From an uncultured Collinsella sp. (GTDB lineage: Bacteria > Actinomycetota > Coriobacteriia > Coriobacteriales > Coriobacteriaceae): a stretch of 64,000 bases of DNA. The stretch spans positions 124,001 to 188,000 of the forward strand of contig CAKUFD010000002.1 in NCBI GenBank assembly GCA_934647195.1, read 5' to 3'. Positions 5,697-25,190 of the stretch are shown here, piece by piece. The notes under the pieces were generated by a model. It saw only the letters and a list, made by a program, of their open reading frames with translations, ran no database searches and was not told the origin of the DNA. The position numbers and the translations under genes were made by a program. Numbering within the stretch: the stretch's first letter is position 1; every line of letters begins with the position of its first letter.

Positions 5697-6948
5697 TACC
5701 CCTAAAGGACCTTCGCCTCGCGATGGCCGTCGTACGGCAGCGCCCGCTCGTCGTACCGCCTCGCCTGCGCATCGACCGGCGCCTCAGGCACGGTCTGCTT
5801 CGCATGCGTCCCGAGGGGTTTATTCACCGCGCCCCTATGCGCCTTCGTCTTATTCGGGTGCCACGCATTCTCGAGGCGCGTCGCGTCGTCGCCCCCAGCA
5901 GCAGCGTCGTTCAAAGGCTCCGGCGATTGCTGCAATCGTTGCCGTTATTGCTGTTGCTGCCGTCGCTTATTTCTTTGTGGTGCCAGCTGTCCAATCGATG
6001 TTTGTGCCTCAGCAGGAGCAGGCGGTTCCGGCTGGTCAGGATGTGACCATTACGATCCCCGAGGGTGCTTCGGGCGATGATATCGCTTCCATTCTTTCAA
6101 AGAATCATGTCATCGAGAATCCGAAGGACTATTATGCCGCCGTTGCCAAGGAGGGGGCGGAGATGTCCCTCAAACCGGGTGATTATGCGCTCAAGACCGG
6201 TATGAATGCCGTCGATGTCGTAAAGCAACTCGTTGCGGGCCCCAATGCTGGCGTTGTTCTTACCATTCAGGAAGGCCTGACATTGGAACAGACTGCCGAG
6301 CGCGTCGAAGCGGTCTATGGAATTTCTAAAGATGAGTTCCTCGCACAGGCTAAAGCATCGAAGTATATGGACGACTATCCGTTTTTAGAGGGCGCTTATA
6401 ACGATTCCCTCGAGGGATATCTCTATCCGAAGACCTATACGTTCACGGGTACCCCTACGGCCGACGATATCATTCGCAAGCTTCTCGATCAATTTGTGTC
6501 GGAGACCGCATCTCTCGATTTGGATAAGGGTGCAAACGGCCTTTCTGCACAGCAGATCGTGACCCTGGCATCTCTTATCGAACGCGAGACCGCGGTCGAA
6601 TCTGAACGCCCGACTGTCGCAAGCGTCATTTACAATCGCTTGGAAGCCGATATGCCGCTCCAAATCGACGCCGCCATTGTCTATGCGCGCGGCGGCGGTA
6701 GCCAAGCTGTGACCTACAGTGACCTTGAGATCGATTCGCCCTACAACGTGTACAAGAACTATGGTCTTACTCCGGGTCCCATTTGCAGTCCGAGTATCTC
6801 GTCGATCAAGGCTGCGCTCAACCCCGATTCAACCGACTACCTGTATTACGTTGCTTCGGCGGCGGGCGATGGCACCCATAAATTCTCTTCTGATTACGAA
6901 CAGTTTGAAAAAGACAGCCAAGAGTACTCGGAGTCCTTATCATCATGA
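5689..6948 (+). CDS. mltG: Endolytic murein transglycosylase MltG
   Basis: About the first 80 residues are basic, Pro/Arg/Ser-rich and probably cytoplasmic and disordered. A single transmembrane segment follows near residues 82-102 (AIAAIVAVIAVAAVAYF). After it comes a LysM-like segment (TIPEGASGDDIASIL and the related region) and then the YceG/MltG catalytic domain. The catalytic glutamate is in SLIERETA, near residue 298, followed by ASVIYNRL and the LTPGPICSPS motif. MltG cuts nascent glycan strands at the membrane and sets their length. I prefer the GTG at 5689, seven to eight bases after AAAGGG; an in-frame ATG at 5683 lies too close to that site but would add only two residues. It overlaps ruvX by eight bases and yqeG by four. 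Confidence 0.95.
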   Translation: MANTPKGPSPRDGRRTAAPARRTASPAHRPAPQARSASHASRGVYSPRPYAPSSYSGATHSRGASRRRPQQQRRSKAPAIAAIVAVIAVAAVAYFFVVPAVQSMFVPQQEQAVPAGQDVTITIPEGASGDDIASILSKNHVIENPKDYYAAVAKEGAEMSLKPGDYALKTGMNAVDVVKQLVAGPNAGVVLTIQEGLTLEQTAERVEAVYGISKDEFLAQAKASKYMDDYPFLEGAYNDSLEGYLYPKTYTFTGTPTADDIIRKLLDQFVSETASLDLDKGANGLSAQQIVTLASLIERETAVESERPTVASVIYNRLEADMPLQIDAAIVYARGGGSQAVTYSDLEIDSPYNVYKNYGLTPGPICSPSISSIKAALNPDSTDYLYYVASAAGDGTHKFSSDYEQFEKDSQEYSESLSS

Positions 6949-7442
6949 GTTGGTTTTCTCCCACCCGATACGTTTCCTGCGTCGAGCGCATTGATCTCGA
7001 TGAGCTTTGGGCTCAAGGGAAGCGCGCCATTATGCTTGACCGCGACAACACGCTGGTTCCGCGCGATATGAAAAGTGCTCCCGAATCGGTTGCTGCTTGG
7101 TTGGATCATGCGCGTGAGCTCGGGTTTTCCCTTTATATGGTGTCCAACAATTGGCATAAAAACCAGGTTGCGCGTTCCAGTCGCGAGCTGGGCATGACGG
7201 CTATCTGCTTTGCCTGTAAGCCGCTTCCTTTTGCCATTCACCACGCTCTCGACCGTATGGGCGTGCCGCATGAGCAGGCGGTTATGATTGGCGACCAGCT
7301 CTATACAGATGTCTGGGCCGGTAATTTTGCCGGGGTCGATAGCATCCTCGTGAAACCTCAGACGCATGTCGACCTTTGGTACACCCAGATCTTTCGTATT
7401 TTCGAGCGCCGTGCTCTCGCACATGTTCCCTGCGAGGAGTAG
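6945..7442 (+). CDS. YqeG family HAD-IIIA phosphatase
   Basis: The 165-residue protein carries the HAD motifs. Motif I is MLDRDNTLVP (nucleophile Asp and second Asp), motif II is MVSNN, and motif IV is GDQLYTDVWAGN. Length and order match the YqeG family, whose substrate is unknown; yeast and Firmicutes relatives are linked to phosphatidylglycerophosphate or mitochondrial/plastid-type phosphatase activity, but that is not shown for this gene. The ATG overlaps the mltG stop by four bases. In Bacillus, yqeG lies beside aroE; here it occupies the place between mltG and aroK where many relatives carry aroE and aroC. Confidence 0.9.
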   Translation: MSWFSPTRYVSCVERIDLDELWAQGKRAIMLDRDNTLVPRDMKSAPESVAAWLDHARELGFSLYMVSNNWHKNQVARSSRELGMTAICFACKPLPFAIHHALDRMGVPHEQAVMIGDQLYTDVWAGNFAGVDSILVKPQTHVDLWYTQIFRIFERRALAHVPCEE

Positions 7443-7447
7443 CCGGG

Positions 7448-7981
7448 ATGCCATCGCTTGAAAAACGAGGCTGCGACCATATCTTCTTTGTCGGTTTCCT
7501 CGGTGCGGGAAAATCTACCCTGGCTCGAAATCTCGGCCATATGTTTAATCGGCGCTATGTTGACACCGACCGCTTGGTGGAGCGTCGGGCAGGAAAAACC
7601 GTCACCCAGATTTTCGAATCTGATGGGGAAGCGGCGTTTCGCATTCTCGAGACCAAGGCTTTGGAATCGCTCTCTTCCGGTCGCAGCTTGCTGGTTTCCT
7701 GCGGCGGCGGCATTGTGGAGACCCCGCGCAATATCGAACTCATACATGAGCTCGGCTACTGCGTTTATCTCGATGGTGACATCGACGACTCCCTGCGTCA
7801 GATTAGACGAAGCGATACGCGTCCCGATTTTCGCTCGGAATCCCATGCTGCGGACCTCTTGCGTCATCGTCGGCCCCTCTATCAGCAAGCGGCGGATCTG
7901 ACGCTCGATATCCGTGGAAAGACCTTTTCGGAAGTCGGCTTTGAATGTGCTGAACTCTTGCTAGAAAGTGGGTTGTTGTAA
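7448..7981 (+). CDS. aroK: Shikimate kinase (stand-alone copy)
   Basis: The 177-residue protein is a full shikimate kinase. It has a Walker A loop (GFLGAGKST), the DTD magnesium/shikimate motif, FR within DGEAAFRILE for shikimate binding, CGGG at the substrate site and a C-terminal RRPLYQQAAD segment with the lid-side arginine. I chose the ATG at 7448, five bases after the yqeG stop and placed where the family normally begins; the open frame extends further upstream only through the end of yqeG. The stop overlaps the next ATG by one base (TAATG at 7979-7983). A second shikimate kinase domain is fused to shikimate dehydrogenase at 19230-20468, so the genome has at least two. Both look catalytically intact. 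Confidence 0.93.
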   Translation: MPSLEKRGCDHIFFVGFLGAGKSTLARNLGHMFNRRYVDTDRLVERRAGKTVTQIFESDGEAAFRILETKALESLSSGRSLLVSCGGGIVETPRNIELIHELGYCVYLDGDIDDSLRQIRRSDTRPDFRSESHAADLLRHRRPLYQQAADLTLDIRGKTFSEVGFECAELLLESGLL

Positions 7982-9081
7982 TGATTCGTCGTCAACTTGT
8001 GAACCTCGGCGGCTTCGGTTGCGACTATCGAATTGGCTGCGGCGCCCTTGGGGACTTTTCGCGTTTTGCCTCCAATGTCGTGACCACTCCCAAACGCGCC
8101 GTTCTTGTCATGGAGTATGGTGTTGCAGATTCGACGCAGACACTTGTCAACCGCGGTCTTGTGGATGCCGGCTTCCGCGTTAGCACGATGCAGCTTGCGG
8201 CTGACGATTCGGTTTGCACGGTCGATTGCGCCCAGCGGATTCAGGAGTTCTGCGCTGAGTCGCAACTCACCAGCGATGACGTTATCGTCTCGCTCGGTGG
8301 CATGGATGTGGTATCGGTTGTCGATTATGTTGCCGTGAGCTGGTGCGGCGGTTGCGCTTGTGCTCATGTGCCCACGACGTTTGACGCCATGTGTCTCGCC
8401 GCTACACGCATGCGGCCCCTCGGTCTTTCTTCGGCTCAAGGTCTCGTTTCTTTTCATCCCCGGGTTTCGCTCGTTGTTTGCGATCTTGACCTCGTGATGG
8501 GGCAGAGCGCTGACGATAAAAAGCTCGGTTTGGTTTATCTCGTTGCCGCCGCAATGACCGAATCCACTCGTTCTTGGGACAATTTTGCCAAGAAGATCCC
8601 CGGTTATCTTGCGGGCGAAGAGGTTGCCTATATCGATATGCTCGGCATGGCGCAAACCGCCTGGAGCGGTGTTCTCAAGGCTTCTAATCCTTCTGCGCGC
8701 AAAGCCTTCAATTACGGTCAGCCTACGGCGCGTGCGCTTGCAACGTGCCTCAAGGATGCGTTTACCCCTGCCCAGTATCTTGCAGAAGGCCTTCGCTTCG
8801 AGGCCCGTCTTGCTCATGAGGTCTTCGGTCTTGATCTTGATACGGTTTTTGACCAAGATGATCGTTTGGATGATTTGGGAATCGAGGAAATTGCCTTCGA
8901 TTTGGATCTCGATGTCTTCCTCGCTGCCTTGAAAGATGAAACATACCGACTGACCAATCGTTTCATGCTTTCTATCCCCAAGGCTTCCGGCACCATTCGC
9001 CTTGCAACGGTAGACGATGATGTTCTCGAACGCCACGCGAAGGCGTATCTGTCCTCGCGTGCAGAATTGATCGATAAGTAG
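7981..9081 (+). CDS. 3-dehydroquinate synthase-like protein lacking the active-site motifs (probable pseudoenzyme)
   Basis: The 366-residue protein aligns end to end with the canonical AroB encoded at 24117-25190. Shared framework segments include DVIVSLGG (DVVVALGG in AroB), the PTTFDAM segment (PTSLLAM), FHPRVSLVVCDLD and NYGQPTARAL (NLGHTIGHAV). The catalytic features are gone. The glycine-rich VVGDLAGF is replaced, the SSVGGKT phosphate-binding loop reads LAATRMR, the HGKN lysine is absent, and the zinc-ligand histidines in LGHTIGH and in the following LGHG are replaced. It therefore probably does not make 3-dehydroquinate. The frame is intact and the start is coupled to aroK, so it is probably expressed. 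An alternative reading is a divergent DHQS-fold enzyme with another substrate. Confidence 0.8.
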   Translation: MIRRQLVNLGGFGCDYRIGCGALGDFSRFASNVVTTPKRAVLVMEYGVADSTQTLVNRGLVDAGFRVSTMQLAADDSVCTVDCAQRIQEFCAESQLTSDDVIVSLGGMDVVSVVDYVAVSWCGGCACAHVPTTFDAMCLAATRMRPLGLSSAQGLVSFHPRVSLVVCDLDLVMGQSADDKKLGLVYLVAAAMTESTRSWDNFAKKIPGYLAGEEVAYIDMLGMAQTAWSGVLKASNPSARKAFNYGQPTARALATCLKDAFTPAQYLAEGLRFEARLAHEVFGLDLDTVFDQDDRLDDLGIEEIAFDLDLDVFLAALKDETYRLTNRFMLSIPKASGTIRLATVDDDVLERHAKAYLSSRAELIDK

Positions 9082-9112
9082 ATTCAACCTCGTTTTGGAA
9101 AGGTGATTGTTG

Positions 9113-10243
9113 ATGGAAAACAAGCTTAATGGACCTGCGGGTCGTATTGCGCGTGTACGCAAGATGATGGAGGAGCGCGGCTACGATGCTGTGGTCATTC
9201 GCGACGAAGCCAACCTGCGCTGGCTCACGGGCGCTAAGGGTACGTTCGACTATACCTTCGAGTTCCCGCACGTTACCTTTATCACGGCCGACGAGTGCTT
9301 TTTCCACACCGATTCGCGCTACTTCAACACTTTCCAGGAGAATCTCCCGGCAGACTCTCCTTGGAAGCTCGACATGGATGAGGGTACCATGCCCCGTTGG
9401 GTTGCCGAGCGCGCCCGCGATACGCGTTCTCGCGTGATTGCCGTTGAAGATGATATGCAGATCTCTTTCTATTTTGGAATCATGCGCGCCCTCGAGGACC
9501 TTTCCATCACGGCAAGCCTGCCGCAGCTCCATCACGACCTTCAGCGCATGCGCGCCGTGAAGGATGATGAGGAGATCGCTCTCATGCGCCATGCGCAGTC
9601 GATCACCGACGCTGCTTTCCAGCACATGCTCACCTTCATCAAGCCCGGCTTGACCGAGAAGGAAATCCGTACCGAGCTCGAGAACTTCATGTTCAGCAAC
9701 GGTGCCGATTCCCTTGCGTTCGGTTCCATCGTGGCCTCTGGCCCCAATACGGCCAACCCGCATGCAGTTCCTTCCGATCGCGTTGTTCAACGCGGCGACT
9801 TCGTGCTGATGGATTACGGCGCGGGCTATTGTGACTACCGCAGCGATATGACCCGTACCGTGGTTGTTGGCGAGCCTACGCCCGAGCAGCTTGATCTGTA
9901 CGCTCTCGTGCGTCGTACGCACGAGGAGTGCGCCGCGGCAGTACACGCCGGCGTCGAGGGCAATGATATCTTCAAGCTTTCGCGTAAGATTATCGGCGAT
10001 GCCGGCTATGGCGATTATTACAATCATGGTCTCGGCCACGGCGTGGGTATCGATATCCATGAGATGCCGAACTTCAACCGTTCGATGAATATCATCGAGG
10101 CAGGCTCCGTCATCACCATCGAGCCTGGTGTCTATCTGCCCGGCATCGGCGGTGTGCGCCTTGAAGACTACGGCGTGGTGACTGAGGACGGCTACGAGCC
10201 GTTCACCAAGTCCACGCACGAGCTTCAGGTCATCGACTGTTAA
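9113..10243 (+). CDS. M24 family Xaa-Pro aminopeptidase/dipeptidase
   Basis: The 376-residue protein has the N-terminal creatinase-like domain (residues 1-130) and the C-terminal pita-bread metallopeptidase domain. The five metal ligands are visible: two Asp in MDYGAGYCDYRSDMTRT, His in GHGVGIDIHEMP, Glu in TIEPGVYLPG and Glu in VRLEDYGV. It releases N-terminal residues before proline in cytoplasmic peptide turnover. The ATG at 9113 follows GGAAAGG at good spacing; a TTG six bases upstream is less likely. It sits just before efp, as in Bacillus (yqhT-efp) and many actinobacteria. Confidence 0.93.
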   Translation: MENKLNGPAGRIARVRKMMEERGYDAVVIRDEANLRWLTGAKGTFDYTFEFPHVTFITADECFFHTDSRYFNTFQENLPADSPWKLDMDEGTMPRWVAERARDTRSRVIAVEDDMQISFYFGIMRALEDLSITASLPQLHHDLQRMRAVKDDEEIALMRHAQSITDAAFQHMLTFIKPGLTEKEIRTELENFMFSNGADSLAFGSIVASGPNTANPHAVPSDRVVQRGDFVLMDYGAGYCDYRSDMTRTVVVGEPTPEQLDLYALVRRTHEECAAAVHAGVEGNDIFKLSRKIIGDAGYGDYYNHGLGHGVGIDIHEMPNFNRSMNIIEAGSVITIEPGVYLPGIGGVRLEDYGVVTEDGYEPFTKSTHELQVIDC

Positions 10244-10367: not shown

Positions 10368-10931
10368 ATGGCTAGCATCACCACCGCCGATTTTAAGAAC
10401 GGCCTCGGTCTCAAGATTAAGGACAAGATCTGCACCATCGTCGAGTTCCAGCATGTCAAGCCGGGCAAGGGCGGTGCCTTCGTTCGCTATAAGACCAAGG
10501 ACCTCAAGACGGGTCGTGTTGTCGAGCAGACCTGCAACGCTGGTTCTAAGTTCGAGAGCGTTACCCTTACCACCACTGAGATGCAGTATCTCTATAACGA
10601 TGGTGACAACTATTACTTCATGAACATGGAGACCTACGATCAGATTCCCGTTCCTGCCGATTTCATCGGTGAAAACGAGAAGTGGCTGCGCGAGAACGAC
10701 GTTTGCCAGCTTCTGTACGCAGACGAGGAGCTCATGGGCGTTAATCCCCCCATGTTCATCGAGGCCGAGATCACCGAGACTGACCCCGGTTTCAAGGGCG
10801 ATACCGTTCAGGGCGGTTCTAAGCCTGCAACCATCGACACCGGTGCTGTCGTTCAGGTGCCCATGTATCTCAACGTGGGCGAGAGGATCAAGGTTGATAC
10901 GCGCGACGGCAAGTTCGTTTCCCGCGTCTAA
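10368..10931 (+). CDS. efp: Elongation factor P
   Basis: The 187-residue protein has the three-domain EF-P layout. The N-terminal KOW-like domain carries the loop HVKPGKGGAFVR with Lys34, which meets the P-site tRNA and is post-translationally modified in many bacteria. Two OB-fold domains follow, ending in the family signature region near GERIKVDTRDGKFVSRV. EF-P relieves ribosome stalling at polyproline. The ATG is preceded by GAAAGG. No epmA, epmB or ymfI-type modification gene is visible in the window. A strong terminator follows at 10957. Confidence 0.98.
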   Translation: MASITTADFKNGLGLKIKDKICTIVEFQHVKPGKGGAFVRYKTKDLKTGRVVEQTCNAGSKFESVTLTTTEMQYLYNDGDNYYFMNMETYDQIPVPADFIGENEKWLRENDVCQLLYADEELMGVNPPMFIEAEITETDPGFKGDTVQGGSKPATIDTGAVVQVPMYLNVGERIKVDTRDGKFVSRV

Positions 10932-19229: not shown

Positions 19230-20468
19230 CTAAATCATGGGCGGCAGGGTGTCGCGAATCAGCGATGCTGTGCGCATCGGGGAGTCCTGGGATGCGACTT
19301 CATAGTCGGCCCAAGCGTGATAGATCGGCATGCGAGCAGAGGCCAGTGCCTGGATGCCGTCTCGAGCTGTAATGGGGCGACCATGGGTCGCGAGCTGCGA
19401 GAGTGCACGATCAATCATGACAATCGCGCTGTTCTGATGTAGAAGCGGGTAGTTTTCGGGGCGTGTGACCACTCCTCCTCCGCAGGAGATGACCTGTCCG
19501 CTGCGCTTGGAGACGTCGGCCAGGCAAGCGGTCTCTTGCTGGCGGAATGCCTCTTCTCCCTGCTGTTCGATATATTCTGAGCAACTGCAGCCTAGGCGCG
19601 ATTCAAGTTCTTGATCGATATCAACAAAGGGTCTATCAAGAAGCGAGGCCAAGGCTTTACCGCCGCGCGTCTTGCCGCATCCGGGCATGCCGATGATTGC
19701 GACGTTTTGCTCAGTAGCCGCTAAGCGCCTGGTCACGTCATATGTGCGAGCCAACTCGATGGGTTTGCCGGTGTAGCGCTCGACCGCTTGCGCCGCTTGA
19801 GCGACAAGCATCAATAGACCGCTTGTGCAAGGGATGCCGCGCTTCTCTGCTTCGAGGATGATCCCGGTGCGCGCTGGGTTGTAGACGATGTCGACAACAG
19901 CCTTGAGGTCGGGTAGGTCATCGAGGCTGCACGGCGAATCGGGGCAATTGGGATACATGCCTACGGGCGTGCAGTTGACGGCAAGTTCAATTTCGGCAAG
20001 ATTTTTGAGGTTGTCGTAGGTATGCTCCCCATGTCGGCTGATGGAAATCGCTTCGACATCCATATCGGCCAGTACTGCCATGACGGTTGCGCCGGCGCCT
20101 CCCGTTCCGCCGAAGACCGCGGCTCGCATACCTGTGACATCGATGCCAAGGGATTCGACGAGGCACTTGAATCCATAGTAATCGGTGTTGTCACCATAGA
20201 GCGTACCGTCTTCGCGGCGCGTGATGGTGTTGACGTTGCCCAGACGACGAGCGATATCGCTCATGTCGGCGAGGTGGGGGATGACTGCGCGCTTATAAGG
20301 GATGGTAACGTTGACGCCTTCCCATTCATCGCCCTTCAGAAAGGCCTCAAGTTCTTCGGGTTCTCGCTCAAAGCGTCGGTAGTCAAGTCCCGCAAGCTCT
20401 CTGTAGATGGTGGGGGTGTAGGAATGTCCTAGCACTCGTCCCAAAACGCCATATGGTCTCGTTGCCAT
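19230..20468 (-). CDS. aroE: Bifunctional shikimate dehydrogenase-shikimate kinase fusion
   Basis: The 412-residue protein has AroE in the first about 240 residues: VLGRVLGHSYTPTIYREL for the substrate-binding start, the catalytic lysine in NVTIPYK, the aspartate in GDNTDYYGF and a Rossmann loop FGGTGGAGAT. A second complete shikimate kinase follows from about residue 250: Walker A GMPGCGKT, VDID, EAFRQQE, CGGG and RMPIYHAW near the end. Both halves look active, so it would turn dehydroshikimate into shikimate-3-phosphate. The ATG overlaps the pheA stop by one base. A separate shikimate kinase gene exists at 7448. Confidence 0.92.
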   Translation of the reverse strand: MATRPYGVLGRVLGHSYTPTIYRELAGLDYRRFEREPEELEAFLKGDEWEGVNVTIPYKRAVIPHLADMSDIARRLGNVNTITRREDGTLYGDNTDYYGFKCLVESLGIDVTGMRAAVFGGTGGAGATVMAVLADMDVEAISISRHGEHTYDNLKNLAEIELAVNCTPVGMYPNCPDSPCSLDDLPDLKAVVDIVYNPARTGIILEAEKRGIPCTSGLLMLVAQAAQAVERYTGKPIELARTYDVTRRLAATEQNVAIIGMPGCGKTRGGKALASLLDRPFVDIDQELESRLGCSCSEYIEQQGEEAFRQQETACLADVSKRSGQVISCGGGVVTRPENYPLLHQNSAIVMIDRALSQLATHGRPITARDGIQALASARMPIYHAWADYEVASQDSPMRTASLIRDTLPPMI

Positions 20469-24116: not shown

Positions 24117-25190
24117 TTACAGTCCCTGTTCGATGAGCTTGCGGAAGTCATCAAGGGATAGGTTTTTGATGTTTACGGATCCAATCGCCTCTATCGCGAC
24201 GATGTTCAAGGTGTCTCCATGGCGTTTTTTATCTGCCTTGGCATGCTTGAAGAGCGTGTCGACATCGAATTCGGTCGAGATGGGGAGACCGTGGGCCGCG
24301 ACGACCGCCTCGATGCGGCGGGCGGTCTCCCCGTCGCACCAGCCTCGCTTTGCGCATGCGCGCGCCATGATGCACATGCCTGCGGCCACGGATGAACCGT
24401 GGCCAAGGCGATACTCGTTTGCGCTTTCCACGGCATGTCCAATGGTATGTCCGAGGTTGAGCGTCTGGCGAAGCCCACGTTCGCATTCGTCGTTCGAAAC
24501 GACGTCACGTTTGATTTCAACGCAGCGGGCGATAACGCTCCCGAGTCGCTCGTGGTCATCGCGCGACTCGGTGAGCGGAGTTTTTTCGAGCGAGGCGAAC
24601 AGGTCGGGGTCGCACATCACGCCGTATTTGATTACTTCCCCGCAGCTATCTGCAAATAAGGTTGGGGCAATGGTGTCGAGCGCTTCAACGCTGGCTACCA
24701 CTGCGCGCGGCTGAAAGAAAGCGCCTGCAAGATTTTTGCCGTGCACAAGGTCGACGGCGGTCTTTCCGCCAACAGAAGAGTCGACCATGGCGAGGAGGCT
24801 TGTCGGTACCTGTACGAGCTTGCAGCCGCGCATATAAGTTGCTGCGGCAAAGCCAGCGAGGTCGCCGACGACGCCGCCGCCGAGCGCTACCACTACGTCG
24901 TCACGGGTGAGTTCGGCTTCGGCGCAGTGCTCGAGCAGTCGTGCCAGCTCGGCCATGTTCTTAACGGTTTCGCTCGACTCGACAACATGGATATGGACGT
25001 CGTATCCGGCATCCCGAAGCGATGCGAGAACGGTATCGGAGTAGAGTGGAGCCACGTCGGTGTTCGACACGACCATAGCTCGGGAGCCGCCGGCGGTACT
25101 GCGCGCAATCTCGCCTACACGTGGCAAAAGCTCGCATGCGATGTGGACATCGTATGTCCTCGATGAGGTGGCAACTTCAATCGTCTGCAC
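24117..25190 (-). CDS. aroB: 3-dehydroquinate synthase (canonical)
   Basis: The 357-residue protein has an intact active site: LGGGVVGDLAGFAAA for NAD, PTSLLAMVDSSVGGKTAVD and HGKN for substrate, the metal-ligand glutamate in SCGEVIKYG, and the two metal histidines in NLGHTIGHAVE and LGHGSSVAAGM. It turns DAHP into 3-dehydroquinate. The start is a GTG (25188-25190 on the complement) preceded by AGGAAG. This gene is the reference for judging the degenerate paralogue at 7981-9081. Confidence 0.96.
   Translation of the reverse strand: MQTIEVATSSRTYDVHIACELLPRVGEIARSTAGGSRAMVVSNTDVAPLYSDTVLASLRDAGYDVHIHVVESSETVKNMAELARLLEHCAEAELTRDDVVVALGGGVVGDLAGFAAATYMRGCKLVQVPTSLLAMVDSSVGGKTAVDLVHGKNLAGAFFQPRAVVASVEALDTIAPTLFADSCGEVIKYGVMCDPDLFASLEKTPLTESRDDHERLGSVIARCVEIKRDVVSNDECERGLRQTLNLGHTIGHAVESANEYRLGHGSSVAAGMCIMARACAKRGWCDGETARRIEAVVAAHGLPISTEFDVDTLFKHAKADKKRHGDTLNIVAIEAIGSVNIKNLSLDDFRKLIEQGL

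Follow-up and report, generated by a model that had tools for sequence, protein, structure and literature searches.

The 64,000-nucleotide stretch analysed here (the window), positions 124,001 to 188,000 of contig CAKUFD010000002.1 from an uncultured Collinsella sp. (GCA_934647195.1), encodes a catalytically degenerate protein with the fold of the 3-dehydroquinate synthase (DHQS) AroB, which we call psB. Its gene lies in the operon position aroC-aroK-aroB-pepP (slot 1), overlapping the stand-alone shikimate kinase family gene aroK1, and a canonical AroB of the window represents the aroF-tyrA-aroB-aroA cluster (slot 2). Sequence comparison leads us to a probability of about two in three that psB is a pseudoenzyme which descended in place and is kept for a non-catalytic binding role independent of both the shikimate pathway and AroK1. 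The phenomenon is real, and it is larger than first noted.

Fold and active site of psB

The psB frame opens with ATG and contains zero internal stops, and the TAA stop of aroK1 (7979-7981) gives its final A to this ATG, forming a TAATG junction; reading the sequence bore out the intact frame, coupled to aroK, that an earlier note on this DNA had described. Homology to DHQS is beyond chance. psB scores 31.1 bits against the Pfam family DHQ_synthase (gathering score 24.2) and matches TIGR01357 with an E-value of 5.2e-12, its nearest solved relative by sequence is M. tuberculosis AroB (3qbd, E 2.8e-7, residues 40-309), and its predicted model adopts the DHQS fold, with a fold match spanning residues 1-361. 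The end-to-end alignment with the window AroB claimed earlier holds through profiles or fold and fails by plain BLASTP, where only a 123-residue N-terminal stretch is significant (33% identity, E 4e-9). With AroB (TIGR01357; PF01761, PF24621), psB shares the whole fold, the size and the N-terminal Pfam domain; unlike AroB, it falls far below the TIGR01357 equivalog cut-off (45.6 bits against 305) and has lost the metal ligands, the NAD glycines and most substrate residues. The Pfam search of the window psB found no PF24621 match and detected no DNA-binding domain or fusion. A chance or annotation-only reading frame is ruled out by the conservation of psB across genomes.

The active site was read at 19 columns in an alignment of distinct degenerate and canonical proteins. 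Site names follow what we take to be the A. nidulans DHQS numbering, with Glu194, His271 and His287 as metal ligands, presumably GGGxxxD as the NAD-binding loop, and K152, N162, K197, N268, H275 and K356 as the presumed substrate residues. The smaller set comprised 86 psB and 36 canonical rows, with two fragments of L060 set aside, and the larger set comprised 97 degenerate and 47 canonical rows, from which the artefact loci L060, L166, L170, L173 and L175 were dropped. All 19 positions are present in every canonical row (36/36 and 47/47), the 19/19 of the window slot-2 AroB being given by construction since it served as the reference row. The window psB retains four of them, and its metal ligands E/H/H read Y/Q/P, so that the loss of the motifs listed in the earlier note stands.

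Across the 86 psB rows, the metal ligands persist as E194 in six, H271 in five and H287 in none, while the NAD loop keeps G114 throughout (86/86), G115 in 29 and G116 and D119 in one row each. Among the substrate residues, K152 is left in 18/86, N268 in 6/86 and H275 in 5/86, and N162, K197 and K356 are each at 0/86; K84 survives in a single row and K250 in none. R264 is retained in 83/86, K250 is replaced by arginine in 82/86 and H275 by arginine in 66/86. The earlier note had raised the possibility of orthologues with an intact metal site, and none was found: the three ligands occur together in 0/97 degenerate rows, one or two metal letters appear in 11/97 (two in L038, L039 and L178), and 96/97 rows hold 1-5 of the 19 sites, L178 holding eight. 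Judged by metal ligands, NAD loop, substrate residues and equivalog score, psB is not an AroB; judged by fold, it belongs with DHQS. The other sugar phosphate cyclases 2-deoxy-scyllo-inosose synthase, EEVS/ValA and desmethyl-4-deoxygadusol synthase carry bound NAD and metal according to their entry titles, whereas psB is without the DHQS residues for both.

Retention, selection and apparent independence from the pathway

A scan of genome contigs gave at least 62 psB loci, in Collinsella, Enorma and related Coriobacteriaceae, six Atopobiaceae and the deeper metagenome-assembled genome of L062. In the family of G001 (the genome of Collinsella stercoris locus L013), full-length psB occurs in 57 of 58 genomes, the remaining one, G322, having a split psB beside N positions. 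The family of G291, called Atopobiaceae and including G005, the genome of L054, was represented by 101 genomes from a larger group, with 90% completeness required; one full-length psB match was found in 97 of these, and a 98th, G159, has an intact frame that the model split. Fourteen of the 97 matches were flagged with one stop; every one of these frames runs uninterrupted at least as far as model position 360, so the flag marks the stop at the C-terminus. This leaves three genomes: G355, with psB split beside N positions, G239, with a very divergent copy, and G128, in which psB was not found. The split copies of G322, its counterpart L060 (Collinsella vaginalis) and G355 were taken as assembly artefacts, with N positions in rearranged scaffolds; the artefact loci were left out of the AroB tree and of the counts over 92 psB loci as well as of the larger alignment. 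G239 (L205) is a 1.0-Mb genome in which both psB and the adjoining pepP are divergent and efp lies several kilobases off. G128 and G387 each gave a further weak TIGR01357 match; in our reading these are other proteins, L215 resembling glycerol dehydrogenase and L214 being an unassigned relative. P0129, a psB protein that shares 66% identity with the Olsenella-like query L143 and is labelled Acidobacteriota, probably comes from a misbinned metagenome contig.

Neither AroB nor psB was found in a further group of genomes, 12 without a TIGR01357 match and 11 without an A3 match. EF-P was examined in 15 genomes (these 12 together with G095, G326 and G364) and matched in 12; in ten of them it is 57-63% identical to the window EF-P, like lineages with canonical slot-1 AroB. 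Nine of the ten, as placed by EF-P identity alone, look like losses of normal AroB. The tenth, G307 (L204), shows a clean absence of psB in a genome without an AroB match and amounts to a natural psB loss.

Selection was estimated from 119 pairs at psB dS 0.1-0.6 among 29 Coriobacteriaceae loci, sampled from L001-L053 and L056. The median omega (dN/dS, the ratio of nonsynonymous to synonymous rates) is 0.102, with a highest single pair of 1.03, against 0.034 for aroK1, 0.025 for pepP, 0.043 for efp, 0.043 for yqeG and 0.037 for ruvX; an estimate from 404 pairs with dS up to 1.2 (median 0.45) is superseded by these pairs. psB is constrained, though less than its neighbours. The dN/dS comparison among orthologues suggested in the earlier note thus returns a median of about 0.10 between close relatives, which, with wide retention and intact frames, supports its statement that the gene is not a decaying relic and, with wide retention and the broken metal set, its term pseudoenzyme. 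A homologous fold, lost catalytic residues, an intact frame and purifying selection are combined in psB, as the term implies. A slowly decaying relic, or a frame serving merely to couple the translation of aroK and pepP, would fit the faster evolution of psB and its absence from G307, but is opposed by the low median omega, by intact frames across two families and by R272 in 99/99 degenerate rows; a mere spacer would not conserve protein sequence, decay is ruled out by omega and intact frames, and we give this explanation almost no credence.

The gene order alaS-ruvX-mltG-yqeG-aroK-psB-pepP-efp is largely constant, and the pairing of aroK and psB beside an M24 peptidase and efp recurs in other genomes, as had been proposed for checking. 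Among 92 distinct psB loci, pepP lies directly downstream in 89 and aroK1 adjoins psB in 84 (78 by script, and L003, L035, L042, L043, L050 and L146 from reading the loci). This adjacency and the stop/start overlap speak for the suggestion of the earlier note that psB acts on the neighbouring kinase AroK1 as scaffold or regulator, as does the joint retention of both genes in G161 and G369, two genomes without most of the pathway genes that were sought. It fares poorly as a conserved role: aroK1 is missing from the slot in 8/92 loci (L054, L055, L057-L059, L061, L140 and L165), no PF01202 shikimate kinase was found in psB-bearing G387 or in G332, a fragmented draft, and G307 has aroK1 without psB. 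Co-occurrence with aroK1 is not of the kind that an AroK-dependent regulator calls for, and we regard the kinase-partner explanation as very unlikely and weak as a conserved role.

The pathway itself also appears dispensable to psB. G161, a single contig of 2,115,681 bases, has intact aroK1 and a 379-residue psB, and neither AroC, a PF00793 DAHP synthase nor an AroB over the cut-off was found there; for EPSP synthase it gave only a weak family match, the size of the second copy in four reference genomes. The drafts G369 and G387 keep psB, and AroC, PF00793 and AroA or AroB over the cut-off were not found in them; in all three genomes the search did not extend to class II DAHP synthase, AroD/AroQ, a stand-alone AroE or other enzymes of the pathway. 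G006 lacks pathway genes likewise, but is a 1.4-Mb metagenome assembly. G391, in which a contig edge cuts off the cluster, and G234, which has a DAHP synthase and an unusual, very long frame, were discounted as pathway-less psB genomes. psB seems to need neither the shikimate pathway nor the adjoining AroK1, and it probably does a second job because it is intact at the same spot in nearly all examined genomes of two families, even in one seemingly without the aromatic pathway.

The same genomes bear on a further explanation, in which psB is a prozyme-like activator pairing with the canonical slot-2 AroB. DHQS is a dimer, and in most psB genomes a second AroB-like match is present. There is precedent for a catalytically dead paralogue that activates its partner, namely the T. 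brucei AdoMetDC prozyme (PMC5201418); the trypanosomatid prozyme is, like psB, a catalytically dead paralogue, but psB survives where active AroB was not found. With intact psB in G161, G369 and G387 and no AroB over the cut-off in any of them, this pairing is still less probable than dependence on AroK1.

Origin in slot 1 and probable repeated loss

Slot 1 of other Coriobacteriia holds canonical AroB, so that psB shares its operon slot with a normal enzyme. The two also have the AEGMRF helix in common: it mostly reads HGxAVAEGMRFAARL in canonical slot-1 AroB, and psB retains AEGMRFxxRL with the histidine gone. In an AroB tree of 91 rows, the degenerate slot-1 rows all group together (100/99), within the canonical slot-1 sequences and away from slot 2. 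In four genomes with the older layout aroC-aroK-X-pepP (G213, G041, G360 and G180), the slot-1 protein is degenerate as well, and a canonical AroB is encoded at another site in each (L187, L189, L190 and L171). A neighbour-gene tree was built from PepP and AroK1 for 69 rows, those without aroK1 being placed by PepP alone. Here the four genomes and six canonical slot-1 genomes make up a clade of ten rows (100/100), and the 56 rows from Coriobacteriaceae, Atopobiaceae and L062 group separately (100/100). Parsimony requires three state changes, two of them forced by well-supported branches, in a tree whose bootstrap is not fully settled and which has three rows with long branches. On this tree, the active site would have been lost independently at least two and probably three times. 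G373, whose slots 1 and 2 each hold a canonical AroB (L169 and L184), is the expected intermediate before active-site loss.

The slot-2 AroB is likely the working DHQS of the window organism, to judge from its sequence; it is listed with psB and the neighbouring genes in Table 1. A short frame with a GxGDxK motif lies between yqeG and psB or aroK in L054 (7393-7866), L057 (7436-7942) and L062 (446-931); we take it to be an A24 prepilin-peptidase-like membrane protein, and in L054 and L057 it stands before psB.

Table 1. Location of psB, its neighbours and other shikimate genes in the window.
Feature	Position	Strand	Basis
psB, catalytically degenerate AroB-fold protein, 366 aa	7981..9081	+	frame reading, Pfam, predicted model, active-site alignment
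aroK1, free-standing gene of the shikimate kinase family, overlapping psB at TAATG	7448..7981	+	PF01202 129 bits; PDB shikimate kinases, best E 5.5e-27
pepP-like gene, M24 type	9107..10243	+	putative, name as in the earlier note
efp, often next after pepP	10368..10931	+	putative, name as in the earlier note
yqeG-like HAD gene, upstream of aroK1	6945..7442	+	putative name
canonical AroB, slot 2	24117..25190	-	TIGR01357 335.6 bits, cut-off 305
AroE-AroK fusion, second shikimate kinase of the window organism	19230..20468	-	PF01202 108.7 bits; Shikimate_dh_N 47.3 bits

Retained residues and candidate function

Residues kept through active-site loss were sought with a cut of at least 80% in slot-1 canonical AroB (20 rows) and at least 90% in psB (92 rows), with rarity in slot-2 AroB (27 rows). 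R17, E269, R272, F273 and D293 pass, and D99 passes less cleanly, being present in 12/27 slot-2 rows. L062 and the four degenerate copies from beyond the two families all retain R17, R272, F273 and D293 (5/5), and each has E or D at E269 (5/5). By alignment, the five are features of the slot-1 AroB lineage kept after active-site loss. With helix positions taken from the predicted model, E269, R272, F273 and R276 are spaced as one face of helix 263-282. By alignment, the former substrate pocket has turned arginine-rich, with R264 kept, K250 and H275 mostly arginine and R327 new.

A rebuilt pocket of this kind could belong to a new enzyme, as the earlier note also considered, one using neither NAD nor a divalent metal and holding an anionic substrate by its arginines. 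R264 and the two arginine replacements favour it, as do derived residues nearly fixed in psB (W121 92/92, R327 90/92, R340 87/92, N326 81/92); against it, psB orthologues differ from one another at the former catalytic positions K152, E194, H271 and H287, and omega exceeds that of neighbouring genes, and we consider a new enzyme unlikely.

The pseudoenzyme reading is likely. The sequences support descent of psB in place from the normal AroB of an ancestral Coriobacteriia operon aroC-aroK-aroB-pepP-efp; where slot-2 AroB catalyses, psB lost its NAD loop and metal site along with most substrate contacts, and purifying selection kept the fold. It would then have been retained for a non-catalytic job, most likely the binding of an anionic ligand or a protein partner. 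The E269-R272-F273-R276 helix face together with R17 and D293 is a candidate working surface, and the arginine-rich old pocket could hold a carboxylate or phosphate.

Several points weigh against this account. The kept residues might form salt bridges in the protein interior that serve structure alone, and any partner or ligand of psB is a proposed one. The window psB reads W, not R, at the K250 position, and single canonical letters persist in some rows, such as the lysines at K152 and the paired metal letters of L038 and L039. psB evolves about 2.4-4.1 times faster than its neighbours, single pairs reaching the omega of 1.03. G128 shows only canonical AroB and a glycerol-dehydrogenase-like match, and G239 retains only its very divergent psB. 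G307, near both families by some neighbours, has pepP directly after aroK1 and shows neither psB nor AroB, and as its aroK1 and pepP are close to those of psB genomes, it counts against universality. Finally, the AroB protein tree unites all degenerate copies, contrary to repeated losses; we attribute this single clade to long-branch attraction.

Shikimate-pathway domains have taken on new roles elsewhere. The fungal quinate regulators QutR/QA-1S derive from AROM domains and QutA from the DHQS and EPSP synthase half. QutR is a case of such domains turned regulator (PMC10512348); psB would be comparable as a pathway domain put to another use and differs in having no detected DNA-binding domain or fusion and in persisting without most pathway genes searched. 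No report of a catalytically dead bacterial DHQS branch was found in the open-licence literature, including that on Coriobacteriia and Collinsella.

aroK1 may likewise have a second role: it stays in G161, G369 and G307, where AroA, AroC or AroB was not found, and in the window organism it exists alongside the AroE-AroK fusion. Standing beside psB in genomes seemingly without the rest of the pathway, AroK1 may share its non-aromatic role. We entertain, tentatively, that the operon AroB always had a second, non-catalytic function which slot-2 AroB set free, so that psB would expose a conserved moonlighting role. Public records name Olsenella psB orthologues 3-dehydroquinate synthase, a label that would mislead metabolic models, chiefly in G161 or G369, where psB is the sole AroB-like match. 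DHQS is a classic enzyme, and the retention of one gene through several losses of its active site would constitute a natural experiment separating its catalytic from its non-catalytic role.
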